A stretch of DNA of 64,000 nt from Gluconobacter potus (lineage in GTDB: Bacteria > Pseudomonadota > Alphaproteobacteria > Acetobacterales > Acetobacteraceae), in the NCBI RefSeq assembly GCF_015244705.1, contig NZ_JABCQF010000010.1:1-64000 (forward strand), in the 5' to 3' direction. Below, piece by piece: positions 694 to 60,822 of this stretch. The notes below the pieces were generated by a model that saw nothing but the letters and a program-made list of their open reading frames with translations, was not told where the DNA came from and made no database searches. Each line of letters begins with the position of its first letter. The stretch's first letter is position 1. A program made the position numbers and the translations under genes.

Positions 694-1626
694 TCAGTGA
701 TCAAGGTTGTGGCCATCATCGGGGCCTTTGAGCAGGTGGCTCGGTTCACCGGTGACACTGACGGGAATGTCTCCGCGCACCGTGATCCGGCGCAGGAGGC
801 GGGGATGGGTGTCGAAATCGGCCGTGGCGTAATGCTGGGTGGCGCGATTGTCCCAGATGGCGATGTCACCGGGCTTCCAGTTCCAGCGGACGGTATTGTC
901 GATCTGCGTGATGTAGGACTGGAAGATTTCCAGGAGCCGGTTGGCGTGCTGGGTGGGAATGCCGCGGATTTCCTTGAAAAAATGGCCCAGGATCAGTGTG
1001 CGTTCGCCGGTTTCGGGATGGACGCGGACCACAGGGTGTTCTGTTTCGTAAATGCGTGAAATGAAGCGGGCGCGGAAATCGGCGATTTCCTCGTTGCGGG
1101 TATCGTATTTGTAAAAATTGGTGTCGTAGTCGTTGCCATGAACCGCCCAGAGCGTGTCCGCGAGCTGTTGCAGCGAGGCGGGCAGGTCGTCGTAGGCCGT
1201 GGCGGTATTGGCCCAGAGCGTGCTGCCGCCATAGGGCGGGATCGTGATGGCGCGCAGGATCGAGGCCTTGGGATAGGCGGGAACGAACGTGACATCCGTG
1301 TGCCAGGAATCCGTGGAGCGGCCGTTGCGGGATTTCAGTTCGAATGTGTAGGGGGTGCCTTCGGCGGCGGGGATGGTCGGGTGGAGGATGGGGTCTCCGA
1401 AGATGCGGCTGAGAGTTTCATGCTGGGCGTCATCAAGGAACTGGTCGCGCAGGAAAATCACCTTGTGGCGCAGCAGCGCCTCATGGAGAAAGGCTTTGTG
1501 CTCTTCGGGCAGGGGCTTGCGGGCGTTGATGCCGTGCACGATGGCCCCGATGCGGGATGTGACCTTTTCAGTCGTGAGGCTGTCGGCGGCCGTGGGGTCG
1601 CGGGGGACGATACGCAGGGTTTTCAT
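694..1626 (-). CDS. TauD/AtsK-type 2-oxoglutarate-dependent dioxygenase
   Basis: This 310-residue protein has the size of TauD and AtsK, non-heme Fe(II) enzymes that use 2-oxoglutarate and O2 to release sulfite or sulfate from sulfonates or alkyl sulfates. The iron-binding facial triad is visible: His109 and Asp111 in SWHTDVTF, and His265 in DNRATQHYA. Arg276 or Arg280 in HPRLLRR would hold the 2-oxoglutarate carboxylate. It is the last intact gene of a leftward operon, and its ATG overlaps the stop of the upstream MFS gene. Two flavin-dependent, sulfur-type monooxygenases in the same operon favour a sulfur-scavenging role. The exact substrate (taurine, another sulfonate or a sulfate ester) cannot be read from the sequence. 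Confidence 0.88.
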   Translation of the reverse strand: MKTLRIVPRDPTAADSLTTEKVTSRIGAIVHGINARKPLPEEHKAFLHEALLRHKVIFLRDQFLDDAQHETLSRIFGDPILHPTIPAAEGTPYTFELKSRNGRSTDSWHTDVTFVPAYPKASILRAITIPPYGGSTLWANTATAYDDLPASLQQLADTLWAVHGNDYDTNFYKYDTRNEEIADFRARFISRIYETEHPVVRVHPETGERTLILGHFFKEIRGIPTQHANRLLEIFQSYITQIDNTVRWNWKPGDIAIWDNRATQHYATADFDTHPRLLRRITVRGDIPVSVTGEPSHLLKGPDDGHNLDH

Positions 1627-2936
1627 GAGGGGACTCCTTCGGACTGGGGGAGTGTGGTGTGGTTGCTGACGCGGTCGGGACGCGTGACGGTCGGTGGTGT
1701 GATGAAGAAGGTGAGGAGGGCGCTGGTCAGGAAAAGTGCGGCGTAGATGAGGATGATCCCCTGTGTGCCGACGGTGCCTTCGAACGCGTAAACGATGAAG
1801 GGGCCGATCCAGACGCTGCTGCCCGCCCCGAGGTTGAGCAGGGACATGGCGATGCCCTTATGGTCCGGCAGAAGGGACGGGGTCAGGGCGGAAAGCGGCA
1901 CGTATCCGGCGAGCGTCATGCCGAAGACGGCGGCTGAGGCGTAGACCGCAAGCAGGCTGCTTTGTGCGTAGAGCAGCGGGATCCAGTACAGTCCGACGCA
2001 GCTCAGCGCGCTGCCGATGCCGCCAAACCAGATGACGGTCTGGCGCCAGGAAATATAGTCACTGGCAAAGCCGATCAGCAGGTTGAAGACGATGTTGCTG
2101 GCGAAAATGATTTCAAGAAACCGGATCCATACATCCTGCGACAGGCCAAGGCGGCCTGTAAAAAAGAACGGCATGAAGACGATCAGGCCATGCGTGGCGC
2201 TGGAATTGACTGCACGTACGATGCACGCCAGCCCCACACCCGGATTCTGGCGAATCTGACGGACGGTTTCGCGCAGGGTGGGGCCAATGTCCTTCAGGCT
2301 GCCTTTCTGCGCGCGCGGGGTCGCGGACAGCGGCAGGACGGCAAGCACGCCACCTGCTCCGACGCCGAGAAGTGCGATCCAGAGCGTAACGTATTGTCCG
2401 TAAACCGGCAGAAGGAGCTGCGCCACGATGGACCCGACCGTAGGCAGGCCGCAGGTAAAGCAGAACCAGAACAGCCCGACGGCACGGCCCAGACGGTCCT
2501 GCCGGATTGTGGTGACGAGCAGGGTCAGCAGTCCGTAGGAGAACAGCGGATAACCCGCCCCCCGCAACCCGTAGGTTAGCAGAAGAAGCGCTGGAGAGTG
2601 GGCCGGGATGGCCACGCCAAGGAACAGGAGCTGCGGGAGTATCCAGAACAGCAGGCCGGCCGTCATAACGGTCCGGCTGCCGAAAATATCGCATAGCAGT
2701 CCCGAGAACCAGGCAGCCAGCGCCGCGACCAGTCCATAGGCGGTGAAGAGGAGCGCGACGAAATGCTCCGTCTGGCCCGTCTGAACCAGGAACGGCGACA
2801 GATAGCCGACCTCAACGCCATCTCCGATCATGAAGACCAGAAGCCCGGCATACTGGAGAGCAAAGCTCCGCGGCAGGCGGCTGGCGGGCAGGAGCGGACC
2901 GTTTGAAACAGAGGGGGCGGGAAACGTCGTCTGCAT
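1623..2936 (-). CDS. MFS transporter of the polyol-permease (RbtT-like) type in the sulfur operon
   Basis: A 12-helix major facilitator protein of about 437 residues. Its sequence is clearly paralogous to the permease at 59401-60780 in the polyol cluster: both have GDGVE.GYLS in helix 1, TEH.VALLFT.YGL in helix 2 and AMSLLNLGAG.SVWIGP near the end. The chosen ATG (2936-2934) starts one base after the TGA of the TonB receptor gene (2940-2938), which suggests translational coupling. An ATG at 2951 and a longer in-frame start at 2981 would both overlap the receptor gene. As the only inner-membrane transporter of the operon, it probably carries the organosulfur compound imported by the receptor. 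That substrate is an inference; the close family normally carries ribitol, arabinitol or other polyols. Confidence 0.85.
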   Translation of the reverse strand: MQTTFPAPSVSNGPLLPASRLPRSFALQYAGLLVFMIGDGVEVGYLSPFLVQTGQTEHFVALLFTAYGLVAALAAWFSGLLCDIFGSRTVMTAGLLFWILPQLLFLGVAIPAHSPALLLLTYGLRGAGYPLFSYGLLTLLVTTIRQDRLGRAVGLFWFCFTCGLPTVGSIVAQLLLPVYGQYVTLWIALLGVGAGGVLAVLPLSATPRAQKGSLKDIGPTLRETVRQIRQNPGVGLACIVRAVNSSATHGLIVFMPFFFTGRLGLSQDVWIRFLEIIFASNIVFNLLIGFASDYISWRQTVIWFGGIGSALSCVGLYWIPLLYAQSSLLAVYASAAVFGMTLAGYVPLSALTPSLLPDHKGIAMSLLNLGAGSSVWIGPFIVYAFEGTVGTQGIILIYAALFLTSALLTFFITPPTVTRPDRVSNHTTLPQSEGVPS

Positions 2937-2937
2937 C

Positions 2938-5403
2938 TCAGAAATCCGCATGAACGGCGCCGAAATACTGGCGTGGCGCACCGAGGACGACGGACTGGTA
3001 ATCGCCGGACATGGGATAGCCGTTCTGGCCCATGGTGGAGATGTATTTCACGTTCGTCAGATTATAGACGTTGAAGTCCAGCGAGAGGTGCTGGAGGAAG
3101 CCCGTATGGGACAGGCGGTGGAGCTGCTTGGTCAGGTCATAGCGGGCGCCGAAATTGGTCAGCCAGTAGGACGGGACTTTCGTGTCGCCCGTGTAGCTGA
3201 GGTTTCGCTTGCCGACATACTGGGCCTCGATATGGGCCTGAAGATCGTGCCAGGTGTAGGACAGATCAGCGTGGTACATCAGGCGCGGATAGGCCACGAC
3301 CTGCTGGCCCCGGATGTTGTAGGTGACGACTGCGCCGTTGACGGTCTGGGTGATGTTGTTGTCGTAGACAGCATGGTTGTAGCTGATGCTGTTGGTCAGG
3401 CTCAGCCCCTTGACGGGGGTGAGGGTCACGGCCCCGTCCACGCCGGTCATCGTTACGCCGCCGACATTCTGGATGGTCGTGTAAGGCTGGGTTGTCGGGC
3501 CAGTGGAGATGCGCTGCAACCGGTTGGAAAAGATCGTATGGTAGCCGTAGAGCGAGCCACTGACGAGGCGGCCGGTATATCGGTAGCCACCGGCGAAGTT
3601 CCAGTCGGTTTCAGGTTGCAGAGTATTCTTCGAGGCCAGATAGGCCGCCTGTGAGGTCGAGAACGGGGATGTGCCGCTGTTGTAGCCCGAGACGGGATAG
3701 ACCTTCACGTTTTCCGCAATGTCGAAATAGAGCTGATGGCCGGGAGCGAAACGCCATTCCCCGCTGAAATGCGGCAGGAAAGGTTTGCTTGATGTCAGGG
3801 AATCTCCGCCCGCAATGGCGGTGGTGCGCGTGTAGGTTTCCCAGTTGGCGAGTGCACTGACGCGGGTCGTGTTCAGGACGGAGCGGAAACCGGCATGAAG
3901 CGAGATGGTGTTGGTGACGCGGTAGGTATCCTGGAAATAGGCGACGAACGTGTTGGTATTGAAGACCTGTCTGTAGCCGTCTTCGAAGGGATTCTTGAGA
4001 TTGTCGAGACCATTGACCGGCGTTGCCGTGCCATTGAGCACGTCTTCCAGCAGGGGCTCCTGATAGAGCGGTTTACTGATGTCGAAATGGGTGTTTTCGT
4101 ACCAGATTCCGGCATTCAGGACGTTATGCGCGATGCGGTAGGATAGCGATGTCGTGAAGCCGAAGCGGTCCGTGTCGGGCTGCGTAACCTGATCGATCAG
4201 CGGTGCGCCGTTGGGGGATGAGATCAGCGGGCTTGCGACCGAACCGCGCTGATAGGAACGGTGTCCATATACCGTGCTCTGCCAGCGCAGGCGGTCGGTC
4301 AGGGCAAGATCGGCCGAGACGCCCCCGATATAGGAATGCTGCATCTGCGCGCCTTCGTAATAGGACGCGGTATAGGGGCTTTTGAGGTTGGCGTAGGCGG
4401 CCGGGACCTGTCCGCCAGGCAGACCACGCTGGGCCAGTGCCAGACGATAGGCTTTTTCGTAACCGCCGGGCTGGCCGATGAAATTATCGATCGCGTAGCC
4501 ACCGTTGTTGAACATGTCCAGGCTGTAGTCCTGGTAGTTCTGCATCTCCAGATCGGCGTAGTCGAAGAACGCCGTGATGCGGCTGTCCTGCCCGATCGGA
4601 TGCAGGACCTTGGCGTTGACCTGCTGCATGAACTGGTCCTGTCCGCCGCGCCATTTGTCTGTGTCGTTGCGGGCATAGGAGACATAAAAGCGCGTGCCCT
4701 GGCGGTTCAGATCCCCGCTTTCGAGGCGCAGGAAGGTGCGGTAGGTCGAGTTGCTGCCAAAGGTCTGGTTCACGCTGGCACCGCGCTTATGGGATGGATC
4801 ACGGGAGATGAACTGCACCGTGCCGCCCAGATTGGAGGTGCTGGCCACGCTTTCCGAACCCGTGGAGGCTGATACATCCATGCGTTCGATATTCTCGGAC
4901 GAAATGGCCGATGTCGGGCTCAGGCCGTTGACGTTGCTGAACTGCTGGTCCCCGAGCGGGATGCCATCCAGTGTCATGCCGATCTGGCTCTGGTCAAAGC
5001 CGTGCATCAGGAACGAATTTTCCCAAGTGTTTACGCCCTGCGGATCACCGGAATTGAACAGCACTCCGGGCAGGCGCGTCAGGGCCTTAAGCGGATTGGT
5101 TCCGGCCGCATATTCGCGGATCGTGACGGCAGAGACGGGATTGGACACCCAGTTCGCCTGCCGGTGTCCTTCCACGCCGATGTTCTCGGTGGTGTGGGAT
5201 GTCAATGCGTGTGCTTTGGTGGATGGCTTGTGAGCAGGCTGTGCCGGTGTGGCATGACGGGATTTCTCACCGGGCTTTGTGGTCGGTGTGGTTGTCGCGG
5301 CGAAGGCATGCGTGCTGACCGACAGGGTCAGCAGGGCAATCAGGGAAATGGAACTGCTGGACGTGCGGATGGCAGCGCGGCTCGAAAACGGGAAAGCGGG
5401 CAT
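2938..5403 (-). CDS. TonB-dependent outer-membrane receptor of the sulfur operon
   Basis: An 821-residue TonB-dependent receptor. An N-terminal signal segment (hydrophobic ISLIALLTLSVSTHAFA, residues about 20-36) is followed by a Thr/Pro/Lys-rich linker and a plug domain with PVSAVTIREYAAGTNPLKAL and LDGIPLGDQQFSNVNGLSP. A 22-strand-type barrel follows and ends in the aromatic outer-membrane signature YFGAVHADF. Receptors of this class use TonB/ExbBD energy to import scarce substrates larger or rarer than porins handle, usually iron complexes or vitamins. Here it sits inside an operon of sulfur-releasing oxygenases and shares translational coupling with the MFS gene. An organosulfur ligand is therefore more likely than a siderophore, but that rests on context only. 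Confidence 0.9.
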   Translation of the reverse strand: MPAFPFSSRAAIRTSSSSISLIALLTLSVSTHAFAATTTPTTKPGEKSRHATPAQPAHKPSTKAHALTSHTTENIGVEGHRQANWVSNPVSAVTIREYAAGTNPLKALTRLPGVLFNSGDPQGVNTWENSFLMHGFDQSQIGMTLDGIPLGDQQFSNVNGLSPTSAISSENIERMDVSASTGSESVASTSNLGGTVQFISRDPSHKRGASVNQTFGSNSTYRTFLRLESGDLNRQGTRFYVSYARNDTDKWRGGQDQFMQQVNAKVLHPIGQDSRITAFFDYADLEMQNYQDYSLDMFNNGGYAIDNFIGQPGGYEKAYRLALAQRGLPGGQVPAAYANLKSPYTASYYEGAQMQHSYIGGVSADLALTDRLRWQSTVYGHRSYQRGSVASPLISSPNGAPLIDQVTQPDTDRFGFTTSLSYRIAHNVLNAGIWYENTHFDISKPLYQEPLLEDVLNGTATPVNGLDNLKNPFEDGYRQVFNTNTFVAYFQDTYRVTNTISLHAGFRSVLNTTRVSALANWETYTRTTAIAGGDSLTSSKPFLPHFSGEWRFAPGHQLYFDIAENVKVYPVSGYNSGTSPFSTSQAAYLASKNTLQPETDWNFAGGYRYTGRLVSGSLYGYHTIFSNRLQRISTGPTTQPYTTIQNVGGVTMTGVDGAVTLTPVKGLSLTNSISYNHAVYDNNITQTVNGAVVTYNIRGQQVVAYPRLMYHADLSYTWHDLQAHIEAQYVGKRNLSYTGDTKVPSYWLTNFGARYDLTKQLHRLSHTGFLQHLSLDFNVYNLTNVKYISTMGQNGYPMSGDYQSVVLGAPRQYFGAVHADF

Positions 5404-5455
5404 GGAGAGACACTCACAAGATACAGGAAACGGGGATTTTCAGGTCTTGGGAGGA

Positions 5456-6823
5456 TCAACAGCGCCAGGCCGGATGGTCGGCGGCCGGGTGTGCGGATGT
5501 GTTCTGCGGGAAAAGGCTTTCGCGCAGGGTTTTGCCAGGTTTGGGTTTGATGCGACCGCGCCGCTTCAGTTCCGGCAGGACGAGGCGGATGAAGTCGTTG
5601 TAGCTGTCCGGGTTGACGACCTGGATCAGGTTCAGCCCATCGGTTTCTGAATCTTCGAGCCAGCGTTCGATCTGGTCCGCGACAGTTCCGGGGCTGCCGA
5701 CGAAAGTCTTGGCGCGGCCAAATCCTTCCGCCGGGCTCGTTGCTTCGGCGATGGTCCAGGACCGGCCGCTGATGGCAGGGTCGAACTGTTCGAGGACGGA
5801 CTGGCTGGCTTCCGTCGGGCGATAGGTCAGGACCTCATCCGTCTGGTTCTTTGAAAAATCCACGCCCGTCATGGAGGAATAATGAATGAGCGATCCGGTT
5901 GCGTCGTAGAACGCCTTGTATTCCGCGAACTTGCGGATGGCCTCTTCTTCCGTCTCGCCCACCACGACGGCGGCAGCGCAGATGAAGCGCAGGCTTGCAG
6001 GATCGCGGCCTTCACGGGCGGCTTCTTCCCGGATGCGCCGGACGTTCTTTCGCGTGCCTTCCGCTCCGGCCCCGACAACGAAAATGACTTCCGCATGCTT
6101 GGCCGCGAAAGCGCCGCCCCGAGCGGAGGCGCCGGCCTGAAGAAGGACGGGAACACGCTGCGGGCTGGGTTCAGCGGTATGGCCATCCGGGACGCGGTAG
6201 TACTGGCCGTCATGGCGGATAGGATGGACTTTTTCCGGATCGGTATAGATCCATTCGCCTGAAGCTGTCTGGCCGCGGATGACGGCGTTCTCTTCCCAGG
6301 ATTTCAGCCAGAGCTTGTAGACGACATCCATGAACTCGTCGGCGCGGTCATAACGCTCATCATGCGGGATCTGATGGTCCAGCCCGAGATTGCGGGCCGC
6401 GCTTTCCTGCTGCGAGGTCACGATGTTCCAGCCCAGACGCCCCTTCGTCAGATGATCGAGGGTCGTGAGCTTGCGGGCGAGTAGATAAGGATGTTCGTAG
6501 GTCGTGGACAGCGTAATGCCGAAGCCGAGCGACGTTGTGGCAGCGGCCATGGCCGACACCAGCAGCAGCGGGTCGATCAGCGGGGACTGGATGCCGTGCT
6601 TCAGGGCGGCGTCCGGGCTGTTGCCGTAAACGTCGATCTGACCAAGCGCATCTGCGATGAACAGGGCATCAAAGCCGGCATCATCGAGCGTCCGGGCCAG
6701 CTCGGTCCAGTAGCTGATATCCTTGTAACGGTGGGTCTGGTCCGCGGGATGGCGCCACAGGCCATAATTCAGGTGCGAGACGGTGGCCATCGTGAAGCCA
6801 TTGAGGATGATGTGCTGTCCCAT
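5456..6823 (-). CDS. FMN-dependent monooxygenase, NtaA/SnaA/DszA type (bacterial luciferase-like)
   Basis: A 455-residue member of the luciferase-like group that includes nitrilotriacetate monooxygenase and dibenzothiophene-sulfone monooxygenase DszA. Family features seen are HPADQT near the start, ISYWTELARTLDDAGFDALF, the GRLGWNIVTS segment, NLGLD, RYDRADEFMDV, and SPQRVPVLLQAGAS. Such enzymes use reduced FMN supplied by a separate reductase to oxidise and cleave C-S or C-N bonds. No reductase gene is adjacent. The start chosen is the ATG at 6823-6821, which overlaps the TAA of the upstream gene (TAATG). A longer reading from 6844 would invade that gene. Substrate not determined; sulfur supply is inferred from its partners. 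Confidence 0.88.
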   Translation of the reverse strand: MGQHIILNGFTMATVSHLNYGLWRHPADQTHRYKDISYWTELARTLDDAGFDALFIADALGQIDVYGNSPDAALKHGIQSPLIDPLLLVSAMAAATTSLGFGITLSTTYEHPYLLARKLTTLDHLTKGRLGWNIVTSQQESAARNLGLDHQIPHDERYDRADEFMDVVYKLWLKSWEENAVIRGQTASGEWIYTDPEKVHPIRHDGQYYRVPDGHTAEPSPQRVPVLLQAGASARGGAFAAKHAEVIFVVGAGAEGTRKNVRRIREEAAREGRDPASLRFICAAAVVVGETEEEAIRKFAEYKAFYDATGSLIHYSSMTGVDFSKNQTDEVLTYRPTEASQSVLEQFDPAISGRSWTIAEATSPAEGFGRAKTFVGSPGTVADQIERWLEDSETDGLNLIQVVNPDSYNDFIRLVLPELKRRGRIKPKPGKTLRESLFPQNTSAHPAADHPAWRC

Positions 6824-8052
6824 TACGCTATTCCCACGCGCCACTGGAGTGGCGGAAGAGTGCCGTTGACAGCATAATCTCCGACGACACGCGTGCGATA
6901 GACGCGCGGATTGTGATTGCCGAGCGTGCGGACGTTGCGCCAGTGCCGGTCCAATCCGGCGACGCGAAGGGTGGCACCGCCGCTCAGTGCATCGAACAGG
7001 GCGGTCGTGGCTTCGAGTACCAATGGCAGGATACGGTCCTGAACCTGCCAGACTTCGAGTTCGGCACGTGCAACCGTGAGGTCGAGCTCCGGAGCGGGGC
7101 TGTCCGCGACGGCCTGAATGGCGCGGGCGGCGCGTTCGACGGCAGCCCCAGCAATGTAGGCACCACTGAAGACATGCCCCACGACTTCAAGGATCTGCGG
7201 GTCTTCGGCGGGAAGGTCCGCATTGCCGTGGCTGAAGGTGCGCTTGCGGCGACGGACGGCATCCGCAACGTCTGTTGCGGCAGCGCGGGCGATGCCGGCC
7301 ACTGTGGCCAGATGATAGAGCTGGAAGAAGGCCTGTGAATACGGGAAGGCCGTGTTGCCGTAGCGCAGGTCGTCTTCTTCCGTATGGACATTGCGGAAAT
7401 GCGCGGTGCCGCTGGCGGTCAGTCGCTGGCCGATGCCATCCCAGTCATCGACGATCTCAAGGCCGGGATCGTTGCGCGCAGCGAGCGTCTTGACGGTCTG
7501 TCCGTCTTCGGTGGTGCCGGTGACGGTCAGCCAGTCGGCATAGAGGGAGCCAGTGGTGAAGAACTTGGAGCCGTTGATGACCCACTGGCCATCCGTCCGG
7601 GACAGGGTCGTGCTGAACAGATCGCGTTTGGAGGCCGGCCCTTCCGCGGCGGCGGCCCCTGCGGTCTGTCCGGCGCCGAGGCGGTCGAGCCATTTTGCCC
7701 GGTATGCGCCAGCGGGTTCTGACAGGAGATGCTCGACGAAGCCAAAATGGGCCCGGAGCGCCTGCGCGACGTTTGAATCGGCCGTGGCCAGCGCCGTGAT
7801 GAGGGAGAACAGATCTTCAAGGCTGGCGCCCAGACCACCATGGGCGACGGGAACACGAAGGGCCGTAAAGCCACTCTCCTTAAGGAGGCGGATCTGTTCG
7901 AAAGGCAGTTCGCGGTTCAGTTCGGCGTGCAGTGCCTGCCTGCGGATCTGCTCGAAAACGGGAGTGAAGCGGTCGTGAAACGGAGTGGTTTCACGGGCAT
8001 CCTGTCCCCAGAGAAGGGAAAGGTCAGGAAGCGGAGCGGATATGTAGGTCAT
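6823..8052 (-). CDS. acyl-CoA-dehydrogenase-like flavoprotein, SfnB/DszC family
   Basis: A 409-residue flavoprotein with the acyl-CoA dehydrogenase fold: a helical N-domain with ALRVPVAHGGLGASLEDLF, a middle beta-domain with WVINGSKFFTTGS and TASGTAHFRNV, and a C-terminal helical domain. It lacks an obvious acyl-CoA dehydrogenase catalytic Glu context and fits the monooxygenase branch (DszC, SfnB) that acts with reduced flavin on sulfur compounds and is induced on sulfur limitation. It is the first gene of the leftward operon, overlapping the next gene by one base. Together with the DszA-like protein it would form a two-step, FMNH2-dependent oxidation, analogous to DszC then DszA. This pairing is known biochemistry for Dsz; its use here is inferred. 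Confidence 0.85.
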   Translation of the reverse strand: MTYISAPLPDLSLLWGQDARETTPFHDRFTPVFEQIRRQALHAELNRELPFEQIRLLKESGFTALRVPVAHGGLGASLEDLFSLITALATADSNVAQALRAHFGFVEHLLSEPAGAYRAKWLDRLGAGQTAGAAAAEGPASKRDLFSTTLSRTDGQWVINGSKFFTTGSLYADWLTVTGTTEDGQTVKTLAARNDPGLEIVDDWDGIGQRLTASGTAHFRNVHTEEDDLRYGNTAFPYSQAFFQLYHLATVAGIARAAATDVADAVRRRKRTFSHGNADLPAEDPQILEVVGHVFSGAYIAGAAVERAARAIQAVADSPAPELDLTVARAELEVWQVQDRILPLVLEATTALFDALSGGATLRVAGLDRHWRNVRTLGNHNPRVYRTRVVGDYAVNGTLPPLQWRVGIA

Positions 8053-8215: not shown

Positions 8216-8220
8216 CAACA

Positions 8221-8242
8221 TAGTTATTTAACTAAATAACTA
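8221..8242. promoter_or_regulatory. perfect inverted repeat just upstream of the -35 box
   Basis: TAGTTATTT (8221-8229) and AAATAACTA (8234-8242) are perfect complements around AACT. The site is very AT-rich in a GC-rich genome and lies directly upstream of the predicted -35 element, where an activator would bind. Confidence 0.5.
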
Positions 8243-8553
8243 TAAAAATAAGTGTTTTAAATTGGGCGTTGTGCCCCTCGCTGTATGATCGGAGCGGGCA
8301 TTCAGAAGTAGCTGAAACCGGGACGGTTCAAGGCGGGTTCAGGGCCGATACGGCATCTGCGCAGCATGGGGAGAATGTGACCTGGACCCCATTCGCAAAC
8401 GCTGGCGGCAGGCGGATCATCTGTTCGTGAGTGGAAGCTGATGATCACACGTATTTTTCTGGAAAGCCCGATATGCACCTGTGCCTTGGGCTGGGCTGTA
8501 TCCTGGGCGGTACTGGCCGGGCGACGGCCAGCACTATTCTTCGTGACGCCTGT
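8243..8553. other. intergenic stretch without a recognised gene
   Basis: Between the sulfur operon promoter region and the oxyR stop I see no convincing gene. A small inverted repeat (CTGGCC 8513-8518 with GGCCAG 8526-8531) follows oxyR on its strand but has no U-tract. Confidence 0.5.
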
Positions 8554-9483
8554 TCAGTTGCAGGCGTGGCAGTGTTCCGGAGTGATGCTGCGCAGATAGG
8601 CTGCGAACTCGCGGAAGACCGGGGCACGGGGGTCGGAGGCGCGCCAGGTCAGGCCGATCGTACGGCGTGCTTCGGGTTCGGGCAGGCTGCGGACGGTGAT
8701 CAGATCTTCGAAATCCGCGCGATTGCGGAGTGCGATCTGCGGGATGAGGGAAAAGCCCTCGCCGGCACCGATCATGTACCACAGCATCTCGAGACTGGTG
8801 GCCAGACGCTGCTCGCCTTCGCGGGGTACCGTCGGGCAGATGGACAGGGCCTGATCGCGCAGGCAGTGCCCGTCCTCAAGCAGAAGCAGGTCCGGGCGGC
8901 CGAGCTGGCTCAGGGAAAGTTTCGGTTTGTGCGCCAGTTCATGTGTGCTCGGGAAAACGGCGAGGAAGGCCTCCTCGAAAAGTGGCGCGCATTCCAGCGC
9001 GTCCGACGGCGTGGGCAGGGCCATCAGGGCCACGTCCAGCTCGCTGTTGCGCAGGGCGTGGACAAGCGTGTCCGTCATGTTCTCGCGCAGGCGCAGGCTG
9101 AGGGATGGATAATGTTCCCGCAGGCGGGGCAGAAGGCCGGGGATGTAATAGGGGCCGAGTGTGGGGATGACGCCGAGACGCAGGGGGCCTTCCATCGGTC
9201 CGGTCTGGGCGCGGGCGACTTCGAGCAGGTTGCGGGCGGCCGCCAGAACCTCGCGGCCGAGCGCAAGGAGCCGTTCACCATCGGGCGTCGGGGCGACATG
9301 GCGCCGGGAGCGTTCGAAAAGCGTTACGTCCAGAAGCTGTTCGAGCTTGCGGACCTGTTCGGACAGTCCGGCCTGACTGACGCCGCAGCGTTCTGCCGCG
9401 CGGGAGAAGTTGCGCAGGTCATCGACCGCAACCACATATTCGATATCGCGCAGGGACAGGCCGGAAAGGGGAACATAGCTCAT
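8554..9483 (-). CDS. oxyR: peroxide-sensing LysR regulator OxyR
   Basis: A 309-residue LysR-type regulator with an N-terminal winged helix-turn-helix (residues about 8-67, including FSRAAERCGVSQAGLSEQVR) and a substrate-like sensor domain. The diagnostic OxyR redox segment is present: GHCLRDQALSIC, with Cys207 and Cys216 spaced as in E. coli OxyR (Cys199 and Cys208). These cysteines form a disulfide on reaction with H2O2 and switch on peroxide defence genes. It is divergent from ahpC-ahpF, the classic OxyR targets, so a direct regulatory link is very likely. It is transcribed in the same direction as the sulfur operon but ends 500 bases before it, so the two are probably separate units. Confidence 0.93.
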   Translation of the reverse strand: MSYVPLSGLSLRDIEYVVAVDDLRNFSRAAERCGVSQAGLSEQVRKLEQLLDVTLFERSRRHVAPTPDGERLLALGREVLAAARNLLEVARAQTGPMEGPLRLGVIPTLGPYYIPGLLPRLREHYPSLSLRLRENMTDTLVHALRNSELDVALMALPTPSDALECAPLFEEAFLAVFPSTHELAHKPKLSLSQLGRPDLLLLEDGHCLRDQALSICPTVPREGEQRLATSLEMLWYMIGAGEGFSLIPQIALRNRADFEDLITVRSLPEPEARRTIGLTWRASDPRAPVFREFAAYLRSITPEHCHACN

Positions 9484-9730: not shown

Positions 9731-10294
9731 ATGGTTCGCATCAACTCCCCGCTGAAGCCCTTCTCTACCGATGCTTTCCGCAACGGTGAGTTCCTCACGG
9801 TCACGGACTCCGACGTTCGCGGCAAGTGGTCCGTTTTCTTCTTCTACCCGGCTGACTTCACGTTCGTCTGCCCGACTGAACTTGAAGATCTCGCTGACAA
9901 CCAGGCCGCTTTCGACAAGCTGGGCGTGGAAATCTATTCCGTCTCCACGGACAAGCATTTCACGCACAAGGCCTGGCACGACACGTCGCCGGCCATCGGC
10001 AAGATCAAGTACACGATGCTAGGTGACCCGACGGGCACGATCGCACGCAATTTTGATGTGCTGATCGAGGAAGCCGGTCTGGCTGACCGCGGCACGTTCC
10101 TGATCGATCCGGAAGGCAAGATCCAGTACATCGAGATCACCGCTGGTGGCGTTGGCCGGAGTGCTGCCGAACTGCTCGACAAGATCCAGGCTGCCCAGTA
10201 CGTCGCCACGCATCCGGGTGAAGTCTGCCCGGCCAAGTGGAAGGAAGGCGGCGAGACGCTGAAGCCGTCCCTCGACCTCGTCGGCAAGATCTGA
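9731..10294 (+). CDS. ahpC: alkyl hydroperoxide reductase peroxiredoxin subunit AhpC
   Basis: A 187-residue typical two-cysteine peroxiredoxin, the usual AhpC length. The peroxidatic Cys47 lies in the signature DFTFVCPTE and the resolving Cys166 in GEVCPAKW. The enzyme reduces H2O2, organic peroxides and peroxynitrite in the cytoplasm and is regenerated by AhpF. The start has a good Shine-Dalgarno sequence (AGGAGA) upstream. ahpF follows on the same strand after 124 bases that contain two strong hairpins. The gene is divergent from oxyR, which probably controls it. Confidence 0.97.
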
Positions 10295-10315
10295 TTCGGC
10301 ACCGGATCTGATGAT

Positions 10316-10360
10316 GGTGGGACCTTCGGGTTCCACCAGCCCCGCCTCCTTTGTGGAGGC
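10316..10360 (+). promoter_or_regulatory. two intercistronic hairpins between ahpC and ahpF
   Basis: Hairpin one pairs GGTGGGACC (10316-10324) with GGTTCCACC (10329-10337) around a TTCG tetraloop. Hairpin two pairs GCCTCC (10344-10349) with GGAGGC (10355-10360). Neither is followed by a U-run. Such structures usually protect the upstream message or cause partial termination, giving more AhpC than AhpF. Confidence 0.6.
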
Positions 10361-10418
10361 TGCTGCACCGGACAGTCTTCCGGCTCGAACTCCAAACCCC
10401 GAAATCCGGAGAAAAACA

Positions 10419-11990
10419 ATGCTTCAGGATGACCTGAAAACCCAGATGCGCGCCTATATGGAGTACCTGCGTGATGCGGTCGTGCTTGAGGCGACCCTTG
10501 GTACGGATGACCGCTCCAATGAGGTGCGCGGTCTGCTGGAAGATATTGCCAGCCTGTCTCCCAAGGTCACGTTCTCGGACAAGGGGCACGGCACCCGCAT
10601 CCCGTCCTTCGTGATCCGCCGGCCGGGCACGGATGTGCAGGTCTGCTTTGCCGGTCTGCCGATGGGGCACGAGTTCACGTCCCTGGTGTTGGCGCTGCTT
10701 CAGGTCAGCGGGCATCCGCCGAAAATCGAAGCGGATGTGGTTGCGCAGATCCGTGCGCTGGACGGGGACTACCATTTCGAGACGTATTTCTCCCAGTCCT
10801 GCCAGAACTGTCCGGATGTGGTGCAGGCGCTCAATGCCATGAGCGTGCTGAATCCGAAGATCCATCACACGGCCATCGATGGGGCAGATTTCCAAGATGA
10901 GGTGGAGCGCCTTGGCATCCGCTCGGTCCCGCAGGTCTATCTGAACGGTGAGCCCTTTGCGTCGGGCCGGATGGAAGTGGCGGATATCCTGGCCAAGCTG
11001 GACACGGCTTCCGTGGCCCGTTCGGCAGAGAAGCTGAATGATATGGCGCCGTTTGACGTGCTGGTGCTTGGTGCGGGGCCAGCCGGTGATGCGGCGGCGA
11101 TCTATGCTGCACGGAAAGGCCTGCGCACGGGCCTCGTGGCCGAGCGGTTTGGCGGTCAGGTCATGGATACGGCCGGGATTGAGAACTTCATTTCCGTGCC
11201 GGAAACGGACGGCCCGAAACTCTCGGCAGCACTTGAGGCGCATGTGCGTCAGTATGACGTGCAGATCATTGCCTCGCAGCTTGCGGCGAAGCTGATCCCG
11301 GCGGAGCAGACCGGTGGGCTGCACCAGATCGTTCTGGAAAGTGGCGCGATCCTGCGCTCGAAGACGGTCATTATTGCGACCGGTGCGCGCTGGCGGCATC
11401 TGGGTGTGCCGGGTGAGGACGAGTATCGCACCAAGGGTGTGGCGTACTGCCCGCATTGCGACGGTCCGTTCTACAAGGGGCGTCCGGTTGTGGTGACCGG
11501 CGGCGGCAATAGCGGCGTGGAAGCGGCGATCGACCTTGCGGGGATCGTCTCGCATGTCACGCTGCTGCAGCGCGGGGCGCATCTCAAGGCGGACAAGGTG
11601 CTTCAGGACCGGCTGCTGAGCCTGCCGAATGTCACGGTTCTGACGAACGCCCTGACCACCAAGATCGAGGGTGACGGCAAGGAAGTGACCGGCCTGACCT
11701 ATAGCGATGGCGATGGTGGGCTGCATCAGATCAAGACGGATGGCGTGTTTGTACAGATCGGTCTGCTGCCCAATACGGAATGGCTGAAGGGTACGCTGAA
11801 GCTCAGCCCGTATGGCGAGATCGTCATTGACGACCACTGCGGGACGTCTGTTCCGGGCGTGTTTGCGGCGGGCGATGCGACGACCGTGCCTTACAAGCAG
11901 ATCGTCATTGCGATGGGTGAGGGCGCGAAGGCTTCCCTGTCGGCATTCGATTATCTGATCCGTCTGCCGGTGGCGGCGAAGGCGAACTGA
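10419..11990 (+). CDS. ahpF: alkyl hydroperoxide reductase flavoprotein subunit AhpF
   Basis: A 523-residue AhpF of normal length. The N-terminal thioredoxin-like double domain carries Cys128 and Cys131 (QSCQNCPD). The C-terminal thioredoxin-reductase-like part has an FAD site ([20 protein letters not shown]), a redox pair Cys344 and Cys347 (AYCPHCDGP), and an NADH-binding [10 protein letters not shown]. Electrons pass from NADH through FAD and the two disulfides to AhpC. The ATG at 10419 is chosen because it follows a GGAGA ribosome site; an in-frame start at 10311 would add 36 low-complexity residues. It forms a unit with ahpC. Confidence 0.97.
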
Positions 11991-20499: not shown

Positions 20500-22998
20500 T
20501 CAGAATCCCGTGGAGGCGGTGAACAGGGCCGCGAAGCCGCCACCGATATAATAGCTCGGGGCACTGCCGGCGATGGTGGTGCCATAGACGCCGGTCGTGT
20601 CCTTCGCGTTCAGGGTGGGGCTCGCCACGCCGGAAAGATAGTGCTCGTTCGTGATGTTGATGAAGTTCATCCGCAGGGTCGGCTGATGCAGATGGACGTG
20701 GTCCGAAAAGCGGTAGCCGATGGCGAGATCACCCGTCGTATGATCCGAGACGCGCTCGTCATTCATGAAGGTGGCGTACTGGTGGCCGGTGTAATGCACG
20801 GTGGCGACGCCGAAGATGTGTCCGTCATCGTAACTCAGCCCGGCTGCGGCCTGAAGGGTGGGGCTGCGGACGGCGATTTTGCCACGGGTGCGCAGAAGGT
20901 CCCCGCCGGACATCAGGTCGTTGTCGATGGTGGCGTGCAGGTATTCACCCGACACATAGGGGCTGAAATGGTGCCAGGGGCGCAGGCCGATTTCCACGTC
21001 CACGCCGCGTGATGTCTGGCCGCCGGCATTCATGGTCGTGCTGACAATGGAGCCGTTCTGCACGGCCTGCGTGGAGATCTGGCGGTTGGTGAAGTTGTAG
21101 TTGAACAGCGTCAGGCTGCCGATGATCCAGCGTCCCGTCCGGCGATATCCCAGCTCTTCGGAAATGGAATATTCATTGCGGACATCCGTGGAGCCGGTTC
21201 CGTACATCTCGCCCGATGAGGGGTCATAGGTGTTGTAAAGCGCGGTCTGATCGGGGGCGCGGAAATTGGTCGTGGCATTGAAGAAAAGCTGGTTCTCGCC
21301 ATCAATCCGCCAGCGCACGCCCAGACGGGGCAGGGGCTCCATGCTGTTGGACGCGACATGGTACTGCGGCCCCGGCAGGCTGTTCGTGCCGTCACGGCTC
21401 ATCATGACGGCCTTGAAGCCGAGGTCGATGGCCAGATGGTCGTGCAGCAGGGACATGTGATCGCCGACGAACAGGGCATTGGTCTGGGAAATGGTGTGGA
21501 AACTGCCGCCCAGAAGTCGCTCGCCGTTTGACAGGCGGATCACGTCCTTGCCGTTTTCCGCCCAGATATCCGGAGCATATCCATTGGTCTGGACGGCTGT
21601 GAACGGCTGCTGCTCGTTGTCATCGCCGTAATCGTACCAGTAACCGAGAACGAAATCGTTCCAGCCGGTCTTGTAATGCAGGGCGCTGGTAAAGCCGGAG
21701 CGGTAGCTGCGCTGGGTATAGTCTGCGCGGACCACGCCGACGCCGTCCTGCGCGCCGGGCAGGTTCAGCGTGTCGGACAGGGCCTGCGTGCCCTGATAGA
21801 GACCGGAGGTGGACATCGTGCTTCCGCCTGGCCAGTTGCCATAGGCGAACTGGGCGTAAGGTGTGACGTCCAGGGACAGGCGGTCTGTCAGTGTCAGATG
21901 AACGGGCGCTCCGCCATAAAGCGTGCGCTCTCCGTCCCGCCACAGGCGCCAGTAATTCGCGCCGTTTTCGGGATTGCTGCTGTCATAGCGGGCCAGAAGG
22001 TTGTTCTGCCCTTTGATCCCGTCCGATTTCCAGCTCTCCATCGTCGGTTCGGGATACCAGCTTGTGATGGTTGTGTTGAAAGAGCCGAGGAGACTGGCGC
22101 GGTTGCCCTGCCCCCATTCCTTGAGGAACTTGAAATCGACGTGCTGTTTCTCGTCGCGTCCGGGGCCGCGCCAGTTGTCGGTTGCGCCATGAGAATAGGA
22201 TATGAAGCCACGGATGCCGGTATGGGCGATGTCGCCGGTATCGAGGCGGATGAATTCGCGGTTGGTGTTGTAGGACCCATAAGACACGCTGGCATCGCCC
22301 CCGGCTTTTTTGGCGGGGTCGCGGAATGTCAGGTTCATCAGGCCGCCGGCCGCGTTCAGGACCGGGCTGTCGAGATCGGCCGATCCCTGAGCCAGGGCGA
22401 TTTCCTGATAGTTTTCACTGTCCGCGAACTGGCTCGGCGTGCCGGAATAATAGGCCACGTCATTCAGCGGCATGCCTTCGAGCACATAGCCGATGGCGCT
22501 GTTATCGAGACCGCGGACGGTGATGTTCGTATTCGGGGAAAAGCCCATCGGATCGGACGAGGCGACATTGGCGCCGGGCAGCATGGAGGCAAGCTGGAAA
22601 GCTGTTGCCATCGGGGCCTGTTTGGAAATGAAATCCTGACTGACCGTACTGACGGATTTCACGCCGTCCTGCAGATGGATCAGTCCGCCCCCCGGCTGGT
22701 TGCCGGGAGCGCTGTCCGGAATCCGGTGCACGATGATGTGCTCGGCCCTGAGGGGCTTAACTGCATGCGTTTGGACGGCCTGCGTCTGGGATGCTGTCTG
22801 CTGGACCGGTGGCTTGGTCGTAGCCGGCGTATCGGCGGCACGCGCGACCGAAAAACAGACCGTTGTGCCGAGCAGGACGGGCAGAAGACTGCGATATCGC
22901 GGACGCAAGACGGGAGACGCAGGTGTTTCCCGGGTATTGGGGCAGTATGGTCTGACAGACGCTGGGGCCGGAAGGGCCGGAGGTTGTCTGTGTGCCAT
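20500..22998 (-). CDS. TonB-dependent outer-membrane receptor under TPP riboswitch control, predicted thiamine receptor
   Basis: An 832-residue TonB-dependent receptor. The N-terminus has a long basic leader and a hydrophobic signal core (LLPVLLGTTVCFSVARA), then a Thr/Gln-rich linker, a plug domain with ITVRGLDNSAIGYVLEGMPL, and a beta-barrel with aromatic ends (SYYIGGGFAALF, then ASTGF). The ATG at 22998 is chosen because GAGGAG lies nine bases upstream; an in-frame TTG at 23025 precedes that site. The message begins with a TPP riboswitch, so the receptor is made when thiamine pyrophosphate is scarce. Thiamine-regulated TonB receptors are known from comparative genomics; the ligand here is inferred. 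Confidence 0.9.
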   Translation of the reverse strand: MAHRQPPALPAPASVRPYCPNTRETPASPVLRPRYRSLLPVLLGTTVCFSVARAADTPATTKPPVQQTASQTQAVQTHAVKPLRAEHIIVHRIPDSAPGNQPGGGLIHLQDGVKSVSTVSQDFISKQAPMATAFQLASMLPGANVASSDPMGFSPNTNITVRGLDNSAIGYVLEGMPLNDVAYYSGTPSQFADSENYQEIALAQGSADLDSPVLNAAGGLMNLTFRDPAKKAGGDASVSYGSYNTNREFIRLDTGDIAHTGIRGFISYSHGATDNWRGPGRDEKQHVDFKFLKEWGQGNRASLLGSFNTTITSWYPEPTMESWKSDGIKGQNNLLARYDSSNPENGANYWRLWRDGERTLYGGAPVHLTLTDRLSLDVTPYAQFAYGNWPGGSTMSTSGLYQGTQALSDTLNLPGAQDGVGVVRADYTQRSYRSGFTSALHYKTGWNDFVLGYWYDYGDDNEQQPFTAVQTNGYAPDIWAENGKDVIRLSNGERLLGGSFHTISQTNALFVGDHMSLLHDHLAIDLGFKAVMMSRDGTNSLPGPQYHVASNSMEPLPRLGVRWRIDGENQLFFNATTNFRAPDQTALYNTYDPSSGEMYGTGSTDVRNEYSISEELGYRRTGRWIIGSLTLFNYNFTNRQISTQAVQNGSIVSTTMNAGGQTSRGVDVEIGLRPWHHFSPYVSGEYLHATIDNDLMSGGDLLRTRGKIAVRSPTLQAAAGLSYDDGHIFGVATVHYTGHQYATFMNDERVSDHTTGDLAIGYRFSDHVHLHQPTLRMNFINITNEHYLSGVASPTLNAKDTTGVYGTTIAGSAPSYYIGGGFAALFTASTGF

Positions 22999-57345: not shown

Positions 57346-57480
57346 AGTGTTTGATGGCTTTCCTGATTGGCGTTATGTTCAGGAACTTTTGTAAGGCGGA
57401 TATATCAAACGTTCTGCTTTGGGGCCGTGTTGGCTGGAGACGCCGCAAATAACAGCGGTGATGGGTTAAGGAGATATCAG

Positions 57481-59253
57481 ATGAACAACATCGACACGAA
57501 ACTCCGTTCTGTTCCGAAGCTGGACAGGATCTTCAATAGTCCTGATCATATCGTGGAAGACGGGCTGAGAGGCTATCTGCTGGCGCACCCGAACATCATT
57601 GCCGAAACTCAAAATCCGCGTGTGGTGCGTCGGCGCGAGGGGAGCCCCGTGCGCAAGGTCGGCGTCATCACCGGCGGCGGTTCGGGTCATGAGCCGGCTT
57701 TCCTGGGCTATGTCGGAACGGGAATGCTGGATGCTGCAGCCATTGGCGAAATTTTCTCTTCCCCGACCGCCGCCAGCTTCCTTGATGCGATGCGTGTCGC
57801 CGATATGGGGGCGGGTGTGGCGTGTCTGTTCGGCAATTATGCCGGTGACACGATGAACGTCCGGCTCGCCATGAGCGATGCGGCCAAGGAGGGGATTACG
57901 GTTGGCACGGTCGTTGCCAATGACGACGTGGCATCCGCCTCGAAGGATGAGGCCGGGCGCAGGCGGGGTGTGGCCGGCGAGATCCTGATGTGGAAAGCAG
58001 GTGGCGCCCGTGCCGAAGAGGGGGGATCGCTGGAAGACGTTCTGGCGGCTGCGCAGAAAGCGATTGATAACACGCGTTCGATCGGCGTTGGTCTCTCCCC
58101 GTGCACTATCGTGGCCAATGGGCATCCGAATTTCACGATTGAAGCGGGCACCATGGAAGTCGGTATCGGCCATCATGGAGAACCGGGCGTCGAGATTCGT
58201 CAACTTGAGCGCTCAAGCGATATTGCGCGCATGATGTGCGACTATGTTCTGAATGATCTTCCGTTCAAGTCCGGCGACAATGTCGCGGTCCTGCTTTCCG
58301 GCCTGGGTGCGACGCCCATCATCGAACTCTATGTGCTGTTTGCCGATGTGGCGGCGGTGATGAAGGAGAGGGGAATTGAAATCCGGCACAGTTTCGTCGG
58401 CAATTATTTCACGTCCCTGGAGATGAAAGGGGTCACTCTGACGGTCATGCGGCTCGATGAGGAACTGGATCGTCTGATGTCTCATCCGACGCATTCGATC
58501 GGTCTGACCCGGGTCGGGACATTTTATACGCCGCCACAGAAGGCGGCTCCGGCGATCGTGCGTAAGATTCAGTCCGAAGTGGAGGATGTCACCGTTATCG
58601 ACAGATATGCCGCCAGAACCGGGATTCCGCTCCAGAAGACAACTGACATCGTTCCGGCGCTCGTCGAAGCCATCGTTGGTGCCCGCGACTGGCTGAGCGA
58701 GATCGATGGCAAGATCGGCGACGGCGATCATGGAATCAACATGGCGAAAGGCTTTGAGCGTTGTGGGGAAAGGCTTGGAGCCAATCCGCCGCCTCTGCGC
58801 GAGGCCCTGCAGATCCTTTCAGACTCGCTTCTGGCGGGGATCGGTGGGTCCATGGGGCCGCTGTACGGACGCTTCTTTGCCGGGATGGCGCTGCCGCTGG
58901 AAAACACCGATTATATCGACGGCAAGGTTTTCGGTCTCATGCTCGATGGCGCCGAGGCTGGTATCCGTTCCCTGGGGAACGCCGATGTTGGCGACAAGAC
59001 GCTCATGGACACGCTCGTTCCTGCCGTTCGGGCCTGTCATGCCACGGAGGACGGGGATTTTCTGACCTGTCTGAAGGCGACGTCCGAGGCTGCCGAGAAG
59101 GGACGGGATTCCACTATTGATCTTGTCGCGCGGATCGGGCGCGCGAGCCGTCTCGGGGAGCGCTCCCGGGGTGTGCTGGATGCAGGTGCTACGTCGTGCT
59201 GCCTCATCCTCCAGACGGTAATCGCCAGTCTGGAAAAAAGCCTGAAGGCCTGA
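57481..59253 (+). CDS. fused DhaK-DhaL kinase, predicted D-erythrulose (or dihydroxyacetone) kinase
   Basis: A 590-residue ATP-dependent kinase with an N-terminal DhaK domain (GGGSGHEPAFLGYVGTGMLD, GVGLSPCTIV, and the substrate-binding His in VGIGHHGEPGVEI) and a C-terminal DhaL domain (DGKIGDGDHGINMAKGF and GGSMGPLYGRFF, with the metal-binding Asp residues). Family members phosphorylate dihydroxyacetone, or tetruloses in the case of DerK and LerK. The RpiB-type isomerase, polyol permease and dehydrogenase around it support D-erythrulose. The ATG at 57481 follows AAGGAG; upstream open frame is not homologous. A 12-bp perfect hairpin follows the gene. Confidence 0.9.
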   Translation: MNNIDTKLRSVPKLDRIFNSPDHIVEDGLRGYLLAHPNIIAETQNPRVVRRREGSPVRKVGVITGGGSGHEPAFLGYVGTGMLDAAAIGEIFSSPTAASFLDAMRVADMGAGVACLFGNYAGDTMNVRLAMSDAAKEGITVGTVVANDDVASASKDEAGRRRGVAGEILMWKAGGARAEEGGSLEDVLAAAQKAIDNTRSIGVGLSPCTIVANGHPNFTIEAGTMEVGIGHHGEPGVEIRQLERSSDIARMMCDYVLNDLPFKSGDNVAVLLSGLGATPIIELYVLFADVAAVMKERGIEIRHSFVGNYFTSLEMKGVTLTVMRLDEELDRLMSHPTHSIGLTRVGTFYTPPQKAAPAIVRKIQSEVEDVTVIDRYAARTGIPLQKTTDIVPALVEAIVGARDWLSEIDGKIGDGDHGINMAKGFERCGERLGANPPPLREALQILSDSLLAGIGGSMGPLYGRFFAGMALPLENTDYIDGKVFGLMLDGAEAGIRSLGNADVGDKTLMDTLVPAVRACHATEDGDFLTCLKATSEAAEKGRDSTIDLVARIGRASRLGERSRGVLDAGATSCCLILQTVIASLEKSLKA

Positions 59254-59268
59254 GGCCGGCAAGGTCTG

Positions 59269-59306
59269 CGGAACGGATCAGCCGACAGTCCGGATGATCC
59301 GTTCCG
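59269..59306 (+). promoter_or_regulatory. perfect 12-bp hairpin between the kinase and permease genes
   Basis: CGGAACGGATCA (59269-59280) and TGATCCGTTCCG (59295-59306) are exact inverted copies with a 14-base loop. There is no U-tract, so an mRNA-stability or attenuation role fits better than full termination. Confidence 0.65.
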
Positions 59307-59400
59307 ACAGGAACTCTACCTCGAATGATCTGTGAGCCTGAAAACTTCGTCACGGCATGATGCGTCATCGTGCGTGCCGTTTTCTGTACCGGGGACAACC

Positions 59401-60780: not shown

Positions 60781-60822
60781 CGGTGTCCCACACATCTTCA
60801 TGATCAATAAGGAACACTGGAA

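Follow-up and report, generated by a model that had tools for sequence, protein, structure and literature searches.

A putative organosulfur-scavenging operon of acetic acid bacteria in which a TonB-dependent receptor and an MFS carrier may replace an ABC importer

Introduction

Uptake of sulfur compounds by sulfur-starved Gram-negative bacteria is usually described in terms of ATP-binding cassette (ABC) importers. Here we analyze a five-gene operon close to one end of a 64,000-nucleotide stretch of Gluconobacter potus DNA (contig NZ_JABCQF010000010.1, positions 1 to 64,000; hereafter the window), which encodes three oxygenases, a TonB-dependent receptor (TBDR) and a carrier of the major facilitator superfamily (MFS), and we compare it with the described systems closest to it. 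The unit is probably an organosulfur-scavenging operon of acetic acid bacteria in which TBDR and MFS carrier stand in for the ABC importer. A conserved unit free of ABC genes would show that the importers used in sulfur scavenging are exchangeable modules, and this one offers concrete genes that bear on TonB-driven uptake of a sulfur nutrient and on MFS carriage of organosulfur anions.

Several known systems share parts of the operon. With tauABCD and ssuEADCB the common trait is the oxygenolytic release of sulfur from organosulfur anions, attributed to the operon by analogy; the operon differs in having no ABC importer, and its dioxygenase misses both the TauD cut-off and the residues that contact the amine of taurine. 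The Dsz 4S pathway and the Msu/Sfn dimethyl-sulfone route have flavin oxygenases of the DszC/MsuC and DszA/NtaA types in common with it. Unlike these, the operon includes no gene for a DszB desulfinase, for SsuD/MsuD or for a flavin reductase, and has an AtsK-type dioxygenase instead. A summary of the 4S pathway is given in an excerpt of PMC11852219.

The genome description of Pseudomonas sp. UW4, in the excerpt used here (PMC3596284), lists a cluster atsACBR-sftR-atsK-sftP with a TonB receptor, AtsK and an ABC importer. Cluster and operon both have an AtsK-type dioxygenase and a TonB receptor, in the operon putatively, for organic sulfur; the former also has an arylsulfatase, an ABC importer and the LysR regulator SftR, whereas the latter has no linked ABC importer and no SftR-type LysR gene. 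SfnB-type, NtaA-type and MFS genes are present in the operon and absent from the seven ats/sft genes listed in that excerpt (the TBDR and SftP are compared by role only). On plasmid p2 of Caballeronia zhejiangensis (NZ_CP084288), genes for SfnB-like, NtaA-like and TauD-family proteins (49.5%, 49% and 50% identity, respectively) lie together as in the operon, but with an ABC set of substrate-binding protein, permease and ATPase; tblastn found no TBDR or RbtT-type MFS gene there. The enzyme set is not peculiar, and the unusual part is the importer, with an MFS carrier and no ABC genes. The original prediction held the pairing of a TonB receptor with an MFS carrier for sulfur compounds to be non-standard; this stands for the MFS carrier and the missing ABC importer, whereas the TBDR by itself is not unusual, because atsK-sftP of Pseudomonas already pairs a TonB receptor with AtsK. 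Among the matches listed in a search of the open-licence literature, we found no description of a TBDR and an MFS carrier acting together for sulfur, nor any report of an operon for organosulfur compounds from Gluconobacter or Acetobacter.

Results and Discussion

A conserved five-gene unit

The five tightly coupled leftward genes that had been predicted are borne out in coordinates, overlaps and families (Table 1). The three overlaps within the unit are 22, 44 and 4 nt, lengths that depend on the start codons chosen, and a 52-nt gap separates the NtaA-like gene from the TBDR gene. Neither the list of open reading frames nor the Pfam search revealed an ABC importer gene within positions 694–8052.

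Table 1. Operon genes and upstream features in the window
Feature	Position	Strand	Remarks
SfnB/DszC/MsuC-type acyl-CoA-dehydrogenase-fold flavin monooxygenase	6823..8052	minus	409 aa; first in transcription order
NtaA/DmoA-family FMN-dependent monooxygenase	5456..6844	minus	462 aa; second in transcription order
TonB-dependent receptor (TBDR)	2938..5403	minus	821 aa; third; Pfam Plug and barrel
MFS carrier, RbtT/DalT/CsbX family	1623..2981	minus	452 aa; fourth; TIGR00897
AtsK/Rv3406-type Fe(II)/2-oxoglutarate-dependent dioxygenase	694..1626	minus	310 aa; fifth; AtsK closest
Perfect 24-bp palindrome, candidate operator	8220..8243		upstream of operon
LysR gene	8554-9483		divergent from ahpC/ahpF; best match OxyR, 236 bits, below the cut-off of 329
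ahpC	9731-10294		over its cut-off
ahpF	10311-11990		over its cut-off

When named genomes were scanned with an alignment of five TBDR rows, the 73 pattern matches included 13 relatives, all 13 from Gluconobacter or Acetobacter; the two peptide patterns used reach only fairly close TBDRs, and absence beyond these genera does not follow. In the neighborhood comparison proposed with the original prediction, all of the other four genes accompany the TBDR gene in each of the 13 loci. The seven Gluconobacter loci keep the order SfnB-NtaA-TBDR-MFS-TauD, while the six from Acetobacter have TauD-MFS-NtaA-SfnB divergent from the TBDR gene; in L060 the TauD gene is interrupted by the contig end. Gluconobacter cerinus NBRC 3267 and G. 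kondonii NBRC 3266 are among the strains with the unit. The 44-nt overlap of the TBDR and MFS genes recurs in each of the seven named loci from Gluconobacter when the start codons closest to those of the window are taken, and the window TBDR is 93–96% identical over the best segment to those of six Gluconobacter records. The unit is also present in 4 of 18 further regions around MFS relatives from the family Acetobacteraceae (read by eye; a selection from the 67 genomes with an MFS match, out of 299 family genomes), although two of the four, L034 and L036, are the same as the named loci L061 and L062. Of 26 genomes from the genus, eight have the SfnB-like gene, used alone as a marker, at E ≤ 1e-120, the other four genes not being checked in each. 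Such recurrence of all five genes side by side, in every one of the 13 named loci and again in 4 of 18 family regions, is more than chance, and the unit is real, conserved and patchy in its distribution.

Assignment of the oxygenases

The SfnB-like protein matches the N, M and C Acyl-CoA_dh domains of Pfam weakly (1.5e-7 to 5e-9), although each match is above its cut-off. The nearest solved structures are TdsC (110 bits), an unnamed probable monooxygenase (103.5 bits), methanesulfinate monooxygenase (91.8 bits) and DszC (86.6 bits), so that TdsC, MsuC and DszC are its nearest relatives with a named function; a histidine in its C-terminal region, invariant in the five carriers of the operon that were compared, aligns with a histidine of all three. 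The NtaA-like protein matches Bac_luciferase (Pfam, 6.3e-53) and reaches 488.2 bits with TIGR03860 (NtaA/DmoA), over the cut-off of 279.7. Its nearest solved relatives are a chain named as dimethyl-sulfide monooxygenase (425 bits) and an alkane monooxygenase (408 bits), followed by hexachlorobenzene dehalogenase (314 bits), riboflavin lyase (299 bits) and DszA (233 bits).

The third enzyme, a match to Pfam TauD (3.8e-57), had been described as a TauD/AtsK dioxygenase and is closest to AtsK. Of the solved chains AtsK is the best match (318–320 bits), ahead of three chains deposited as taurine dioxygenase (279–291 bits) and of Rv3406 (275 bits); the taurine dioxygenase chain 1gqw gives 186.5 bits, and phenoxy-acid dioxygenases are among the weaker relatives. 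As in type II alkyl sulfatases of the AtsK/Rv3406 kind, there is an iron site HxD...H (His109, Asp111, His265) and a 2-oxoglutarate arginine (Arg276), with AtsK the closest relative; His82, His109, Asp111, His265, Arg276 and Arg280 are invariant across the five carriers. Aligned with E. coli TauD (37% identity), the dioxygenase keeps the positions of TauD His70 and Arg270, residues with roles in sulfonate binding. The position of TauD Phe159, which is Tyr in the AtsK/Rv3406 group, falls on Thr169 or Phe171 depending on the alignment. TauD residues Tyr73, Asp94 and Asn95, named as contacts of the taurine amine in the excerpted text of PMC3675115, correspond in two alignments to Ile85, Ser104 and Thr105; the same excerpt states that alkyl sulfates, but not taurine, are cleaved by Rv3406, a relative of AtsK. 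Taurine was considered as a substrate and is unlikely, because AtsK is a nearer relative of the dioxygenase than 1gqw is, because the taurine-amine contacts are missing and the score is below the TauD cut-off, and because Rv3406 does not cleave taurine. We consider the enzyme to be probably of the AtsK/Rv3406 type, with a putative activity on alkyl sulfates.

Carrier and receptor

The MFS carrier matches MFS_1 (Pfam, 2.7e-29) and scores 413.9 bits with TIGR00897 (RbtT/DalT/CsbX), over the cut-off of 375. Members of the RbtT/DalT family are polyol importers, and the earlier label of a polyol-type carrier holds at the family level. Polyol transport by the operon carriers should not be assumed, however, since they form a clade of their own with changed residues. 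In an unrooted tree the 18 operon rows (16 distinct, with two identical pairs; row orientation taken from tblastn) make up one side of a branch with support 100/100, separate from 27 other family members, and the tree program warns of long branches, L037 included. His264 and Glu290 are found in all 18 operon rows and in none of the other 27. A paralogue at positions 59332–60780 of the window illustrates the difference: it belongs to the same family (514.8 bits with TIGR00897) and is 46–49% identical to the operon carrier, but lies outside the clade with His264 and Glu290. A structure model of the operon carrier (mean predicted local distance difference test score, pLDDT, 72.7) matches only the general MFS fold, from NorA and VMAT to OxlT and MelB, and is uninformative on substrate.

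The TBDR has the Plug and TonB barrel domains (barrel 2.1e-28, Pfam) and an N-terminus that, by eye, resembles a signal peptide. No solved structure matched its profile at E ≤ 1e-10, and its structure model, with a mean pLDDT of 39.1, is too poor for use. Relatives were viewed in 17 neighborhoods, comprising 13 stretches, in which a few chosen neighbors were scanned and to which two genomes supplied two loci each, and four regions of plasmids, selected from 40 records. In eight of the 17—a rate not compared with any expectation—an organophosphate hydrolase gene adjoins or diverges from that of the TBDR relative: PhoD in L093, L095 and L100, phospholipase C in L096 and L141, phosphodiesterase in L092 and L142, and GDPD in L101. 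At L140 an arginine deiminase gene and an amino-acid ABC set lie alongside. A paralogue in the host genome (53% identity; L090, G000:C6:122000-141999) gives another set of TBDR and secondary carrier: its unit also encodes an NCS1 permease, together with an M20 peptidase, an amidohydrolase and a CobW-type GTPase, and diverges from aminotransferase, GlcD-like oxidase and HutD genes. Because the neighbors of its relatives are nutrient genes, the group looks like one of nutrient receptors rather than siderophore receptors. An excerpt of PMC3400609 places SftP among the TonB-dependent transporters of the siderophore/vitamin group.

Three further TBDR observations may be recorded. At positions 10001–12440 of L057 (Gluconobacter vitians), TBDR matches lie in two frames near the gene start, which suggests a frame break. 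The same locus has two more TBDR-like stretches within about 10 kb. In the window itself, positions 20539–22908 hold a further TonB-receptor-like stretch on the opposite strand, which shares about 25% identity with the TBDR of the operon.

Importers near related enzymes

In a sample of 398 genomes from the phylum, with at most four candidates scored per genome, 22 genomes had SfnB-type matches at E ≤ 1e-90; the matches numbered 24, including that of the window. The other 23 phylum loci, together with four plasmid loci chosen from 641 plasmid records with a match, were searched by tblastn (E ≤ 1e-6); five TBDRs, two MFS carriers and the ABC parts of three annotated clusters served as queries. 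No TBDR match and no RbtT-type MFS match was obtained in any of the 27 loci with these queries. At least one ABC part was matched in 20 of them, namely 16 of 23 phylum loci and all four plasmid loci, three of which had supplied ABC queries and were positive by construction. An LLM-type monooxygenase was matched in 16 of the 23 phylum loci, in five of them at only 28–29% identity. The related enzymes are accompanied by Ssu-type, oligopeptide-type and branched-chain-type ABC sets, the last in Rhizobium and Methylobacterium loci; in Pantoea a four-gene ABC set adjoins the NtaA/DmoA gene. In the acetic acid bacteria, the TBDR and the MFS carrier would then occupy the place of the ABC importer.

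The absence of an ABC importer, as originally predicted, is confirmed for the operon, and for the host genome (3.42 Mb in 67 contigs) it was followed through two families, SsuA and the sulfate/thiosulfate binding proteins; TauA-specific, SulP and other sulfate or organosulfur importers were outside this search. No host protein is over the SsuA cut-off (one partial match, 25.6 bits), and none matches the family of sulfate/thiosulfate binding proteins, which was itself detected in only five of 14 control genomes. Among 25 chosen genomes, none of five carriers and seven of 20 genomes taken as non-carriers, the congener G218 among the seven, have an SsuA protein over the cut-off, a difference that is not significant (one-sided hypergeometric approximately 0.16, by hand) but whose direction fits importer replacement. 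The 20 were classed as non-carriers by the context of the best MFS match (11), by a missing SfnB marker (six) or by MFS similarity alone (G060, G085 and G169).

A number of observations, in addition to the plasmid loci positive by construction and the non-significant SsuA difference, weigh against an organosulfur operon with a replaced importer. As regards transport, seven of the 27 loci have no ABC match, although two of the seven are on short contigs; five of the 16 positive phylum loci (L146, L148, L154, L159 and L161) show only a lone binding-protein or ATPase match; and the Pantoea locus has, in addition to its ABC set, a gene for a different type of MFS protein about 600 nt away from the SfnB-like gene. 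The carrier G242 has an SsuA relative below the cut-off (129.8 bits), and the TBDR paralogue of the host sits among genes that are not of a sulfur kind. As regards the enzymes, the SfnB-like protein scores 257.8 bits against an SfnB equivalog cut-off of 430.9 (TIGR04022), the dioxygenase scores 237 bits against a TauD cut-off of 313 (NF007104), and the NtaA-type family includes enzymes for alkanes, chlorobenzene and riboflavin, all of them among the nearest solved relatives. There is no adjacent sulfur regulator, and in a Gordonia paper the log2 values of Table 2 are printed with a minus sign, contrary to its text.

Proposed pathway and alternatives

Sulfur scavenging is supported by homology and by conserved context, and the corresponding part of the original prediction is in this measure upheld. 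We infer sulfur as the element harvested, and likewise the direction of transport, the order of reactions, the substrate and the regulation, from the sequences. In the proposed pathway, the TBDR would carry a scarce anionic organosulfur compound over the outer membrane, and the MFS carrier—an altered member of the polyol-carrier family—would move it over the inner membrane by a secondary route, with no ABC importer. Three cytoplasmic oxygenases would then free inorganic sulfur: the SfnB/DszC/MsuC-type enzyme by oxidizing the sulfur (either from sulfide to sulfone or from sulfinate to sulfonate), the NtaA/DmoA-type enzyme by cleaving the C-S bond, and the AtsK-type dioxygenase by removing the last sulfonate or sulfate-ester group. 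The sulfite would pass to an enzyme of the sulfite-reductase type whose gene lies outside the operon; in the host genome, PF01077 (sulfite/nitrite reductase) domains are found at G000:C6:119290-120582 and on C20. Reduced flavin would come from an unlinked reductase; the host genome has one PF01613 flavin reductase (G000:C1:334162), which is unlinked and over no equivalog cut-off. More specifically, and tentatively, a TBDR from a group often found beside organophosphate hydrolases could have been joined to a polyol-family MFS carrier in an ABC-free import line feeding a single chain that would convert a sulfide or sulfone, via sulfinate and sulfonate, into sulfite, with the AtsK-type dioxygenase replacing DszB or SsuD.

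The oxygenases might instead work in parallel, each on organosulfur compounds of its own class (sulfones or sulfides, sulfinates, and sulfate esters), with the TBDR and the MFS carrier as importers of broad specificity. We regard this as a serious alternative, with chances a little short of even: the AtsK relative acts directly on alkyl sulfates, for which neither flavoenzyme is needed, and a TauD-type gene is matched near SfnB relatives in only three of 23 phylum loci and one of four plasmid loci, that one being a query source. A joint substrate is favored because the five genes stay together in all of the 13 named loci. It seems quite unlikely to us that the operon supplies carbon or nitrogen by breaking down a compound without sulfur, for example an aminopolycarboxylate, an alkane, a phenoxy acid or a flavin. 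Three of the five solved structures nearest to the NtaA-type enzyme are indeed an alkane monooxygenase, hexachlorobenzene dehalogenase and riboflavin lyase, and phenoxy-acid dioxygenases are among the weaker relatives of the operon dioxygenase, but the latter keeps the TauD His70 and Arg270 positions and is closest to AtsK, and the SfnB-type enzyme is nearest to TdsC, MsuC and DszC among relatives of named function.

The transport roles could be divided differently. Export by the MFS carrier of a product, either the desulfurized carbon skeleton or sulfite, with uptake by the TBDR and an unlinked or unrecognized inner-membrane importer, is also unlikely, if slightly less so than a sulfur-free substrate; the family's members are polyol importers, and the host genome has neither an SsuA-family protein over the cut-off nor a sulfate-binding-protein match. 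That search covered just these two families, which leaves some room for such an importer, and the exporters NorA and VMAT are among the nearest solved sequences and folds of the carrier, although they reflect only the general MFS fold. Export of a sulfonate by an MFS protein, YihP, is described in an excerpted review (PMC12890257). Very improbable, finally, is that the TBDR delivers iron for the iron-dependent dioxygenase rather than the sulfur substrate. It does match the TonB-siderophore receptor family TIGR01783, but weakly (82.6 bits, below the cut-off of 223.5), the unit has no siderophore gene, and TBDR relatives adjoin nutrient genes (phosphoesterases in eight of 17 neighborhoods, arginine deiminase with an amino-acid ABC set in one, an NCS1 permease in one).

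Upstream and flanking features

The palindrome upstream of the operon (Table 1) is the sole zero-mismatch site of its pattern in the host genome. A regulon based on it was rejected: the pattern gave four and seven sites by strand, whereas a reversed-pattern control gave 15 and 13, and no regulon can be inferred because the control gave more. Inverted repeats lie about 180–200 nt before the first gene in four of eight Gluconobacter upstream regions (the window, L053, L055 and L056), with arms and spacing that differ, and the palindrome scan found none in the other four. The adjacent LysR gene was likewise considered as an SftR-like regulator of the operon and rejected, as it is OxyR-like and stands beside ahpC and ahpF. 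The excerpt of a transcriptome study of Gluconobacter oxydans (PMC9412170) mentions genes of the alkanesulfonate route as being expressed less at high glucose, with no description of them.

On its 3′ side the operon is followed by the end of a rightward reading frame (approximately 1–360, read by eye). At the far end of the window, the MFS paralogue described above is flanked by a Dak1/Dak2 (dihydroxyacetone-kinase-type) gene and a short-chain dehydrogenase gene, and this region (57367–61578) is likely a sugar-alcohol unit.

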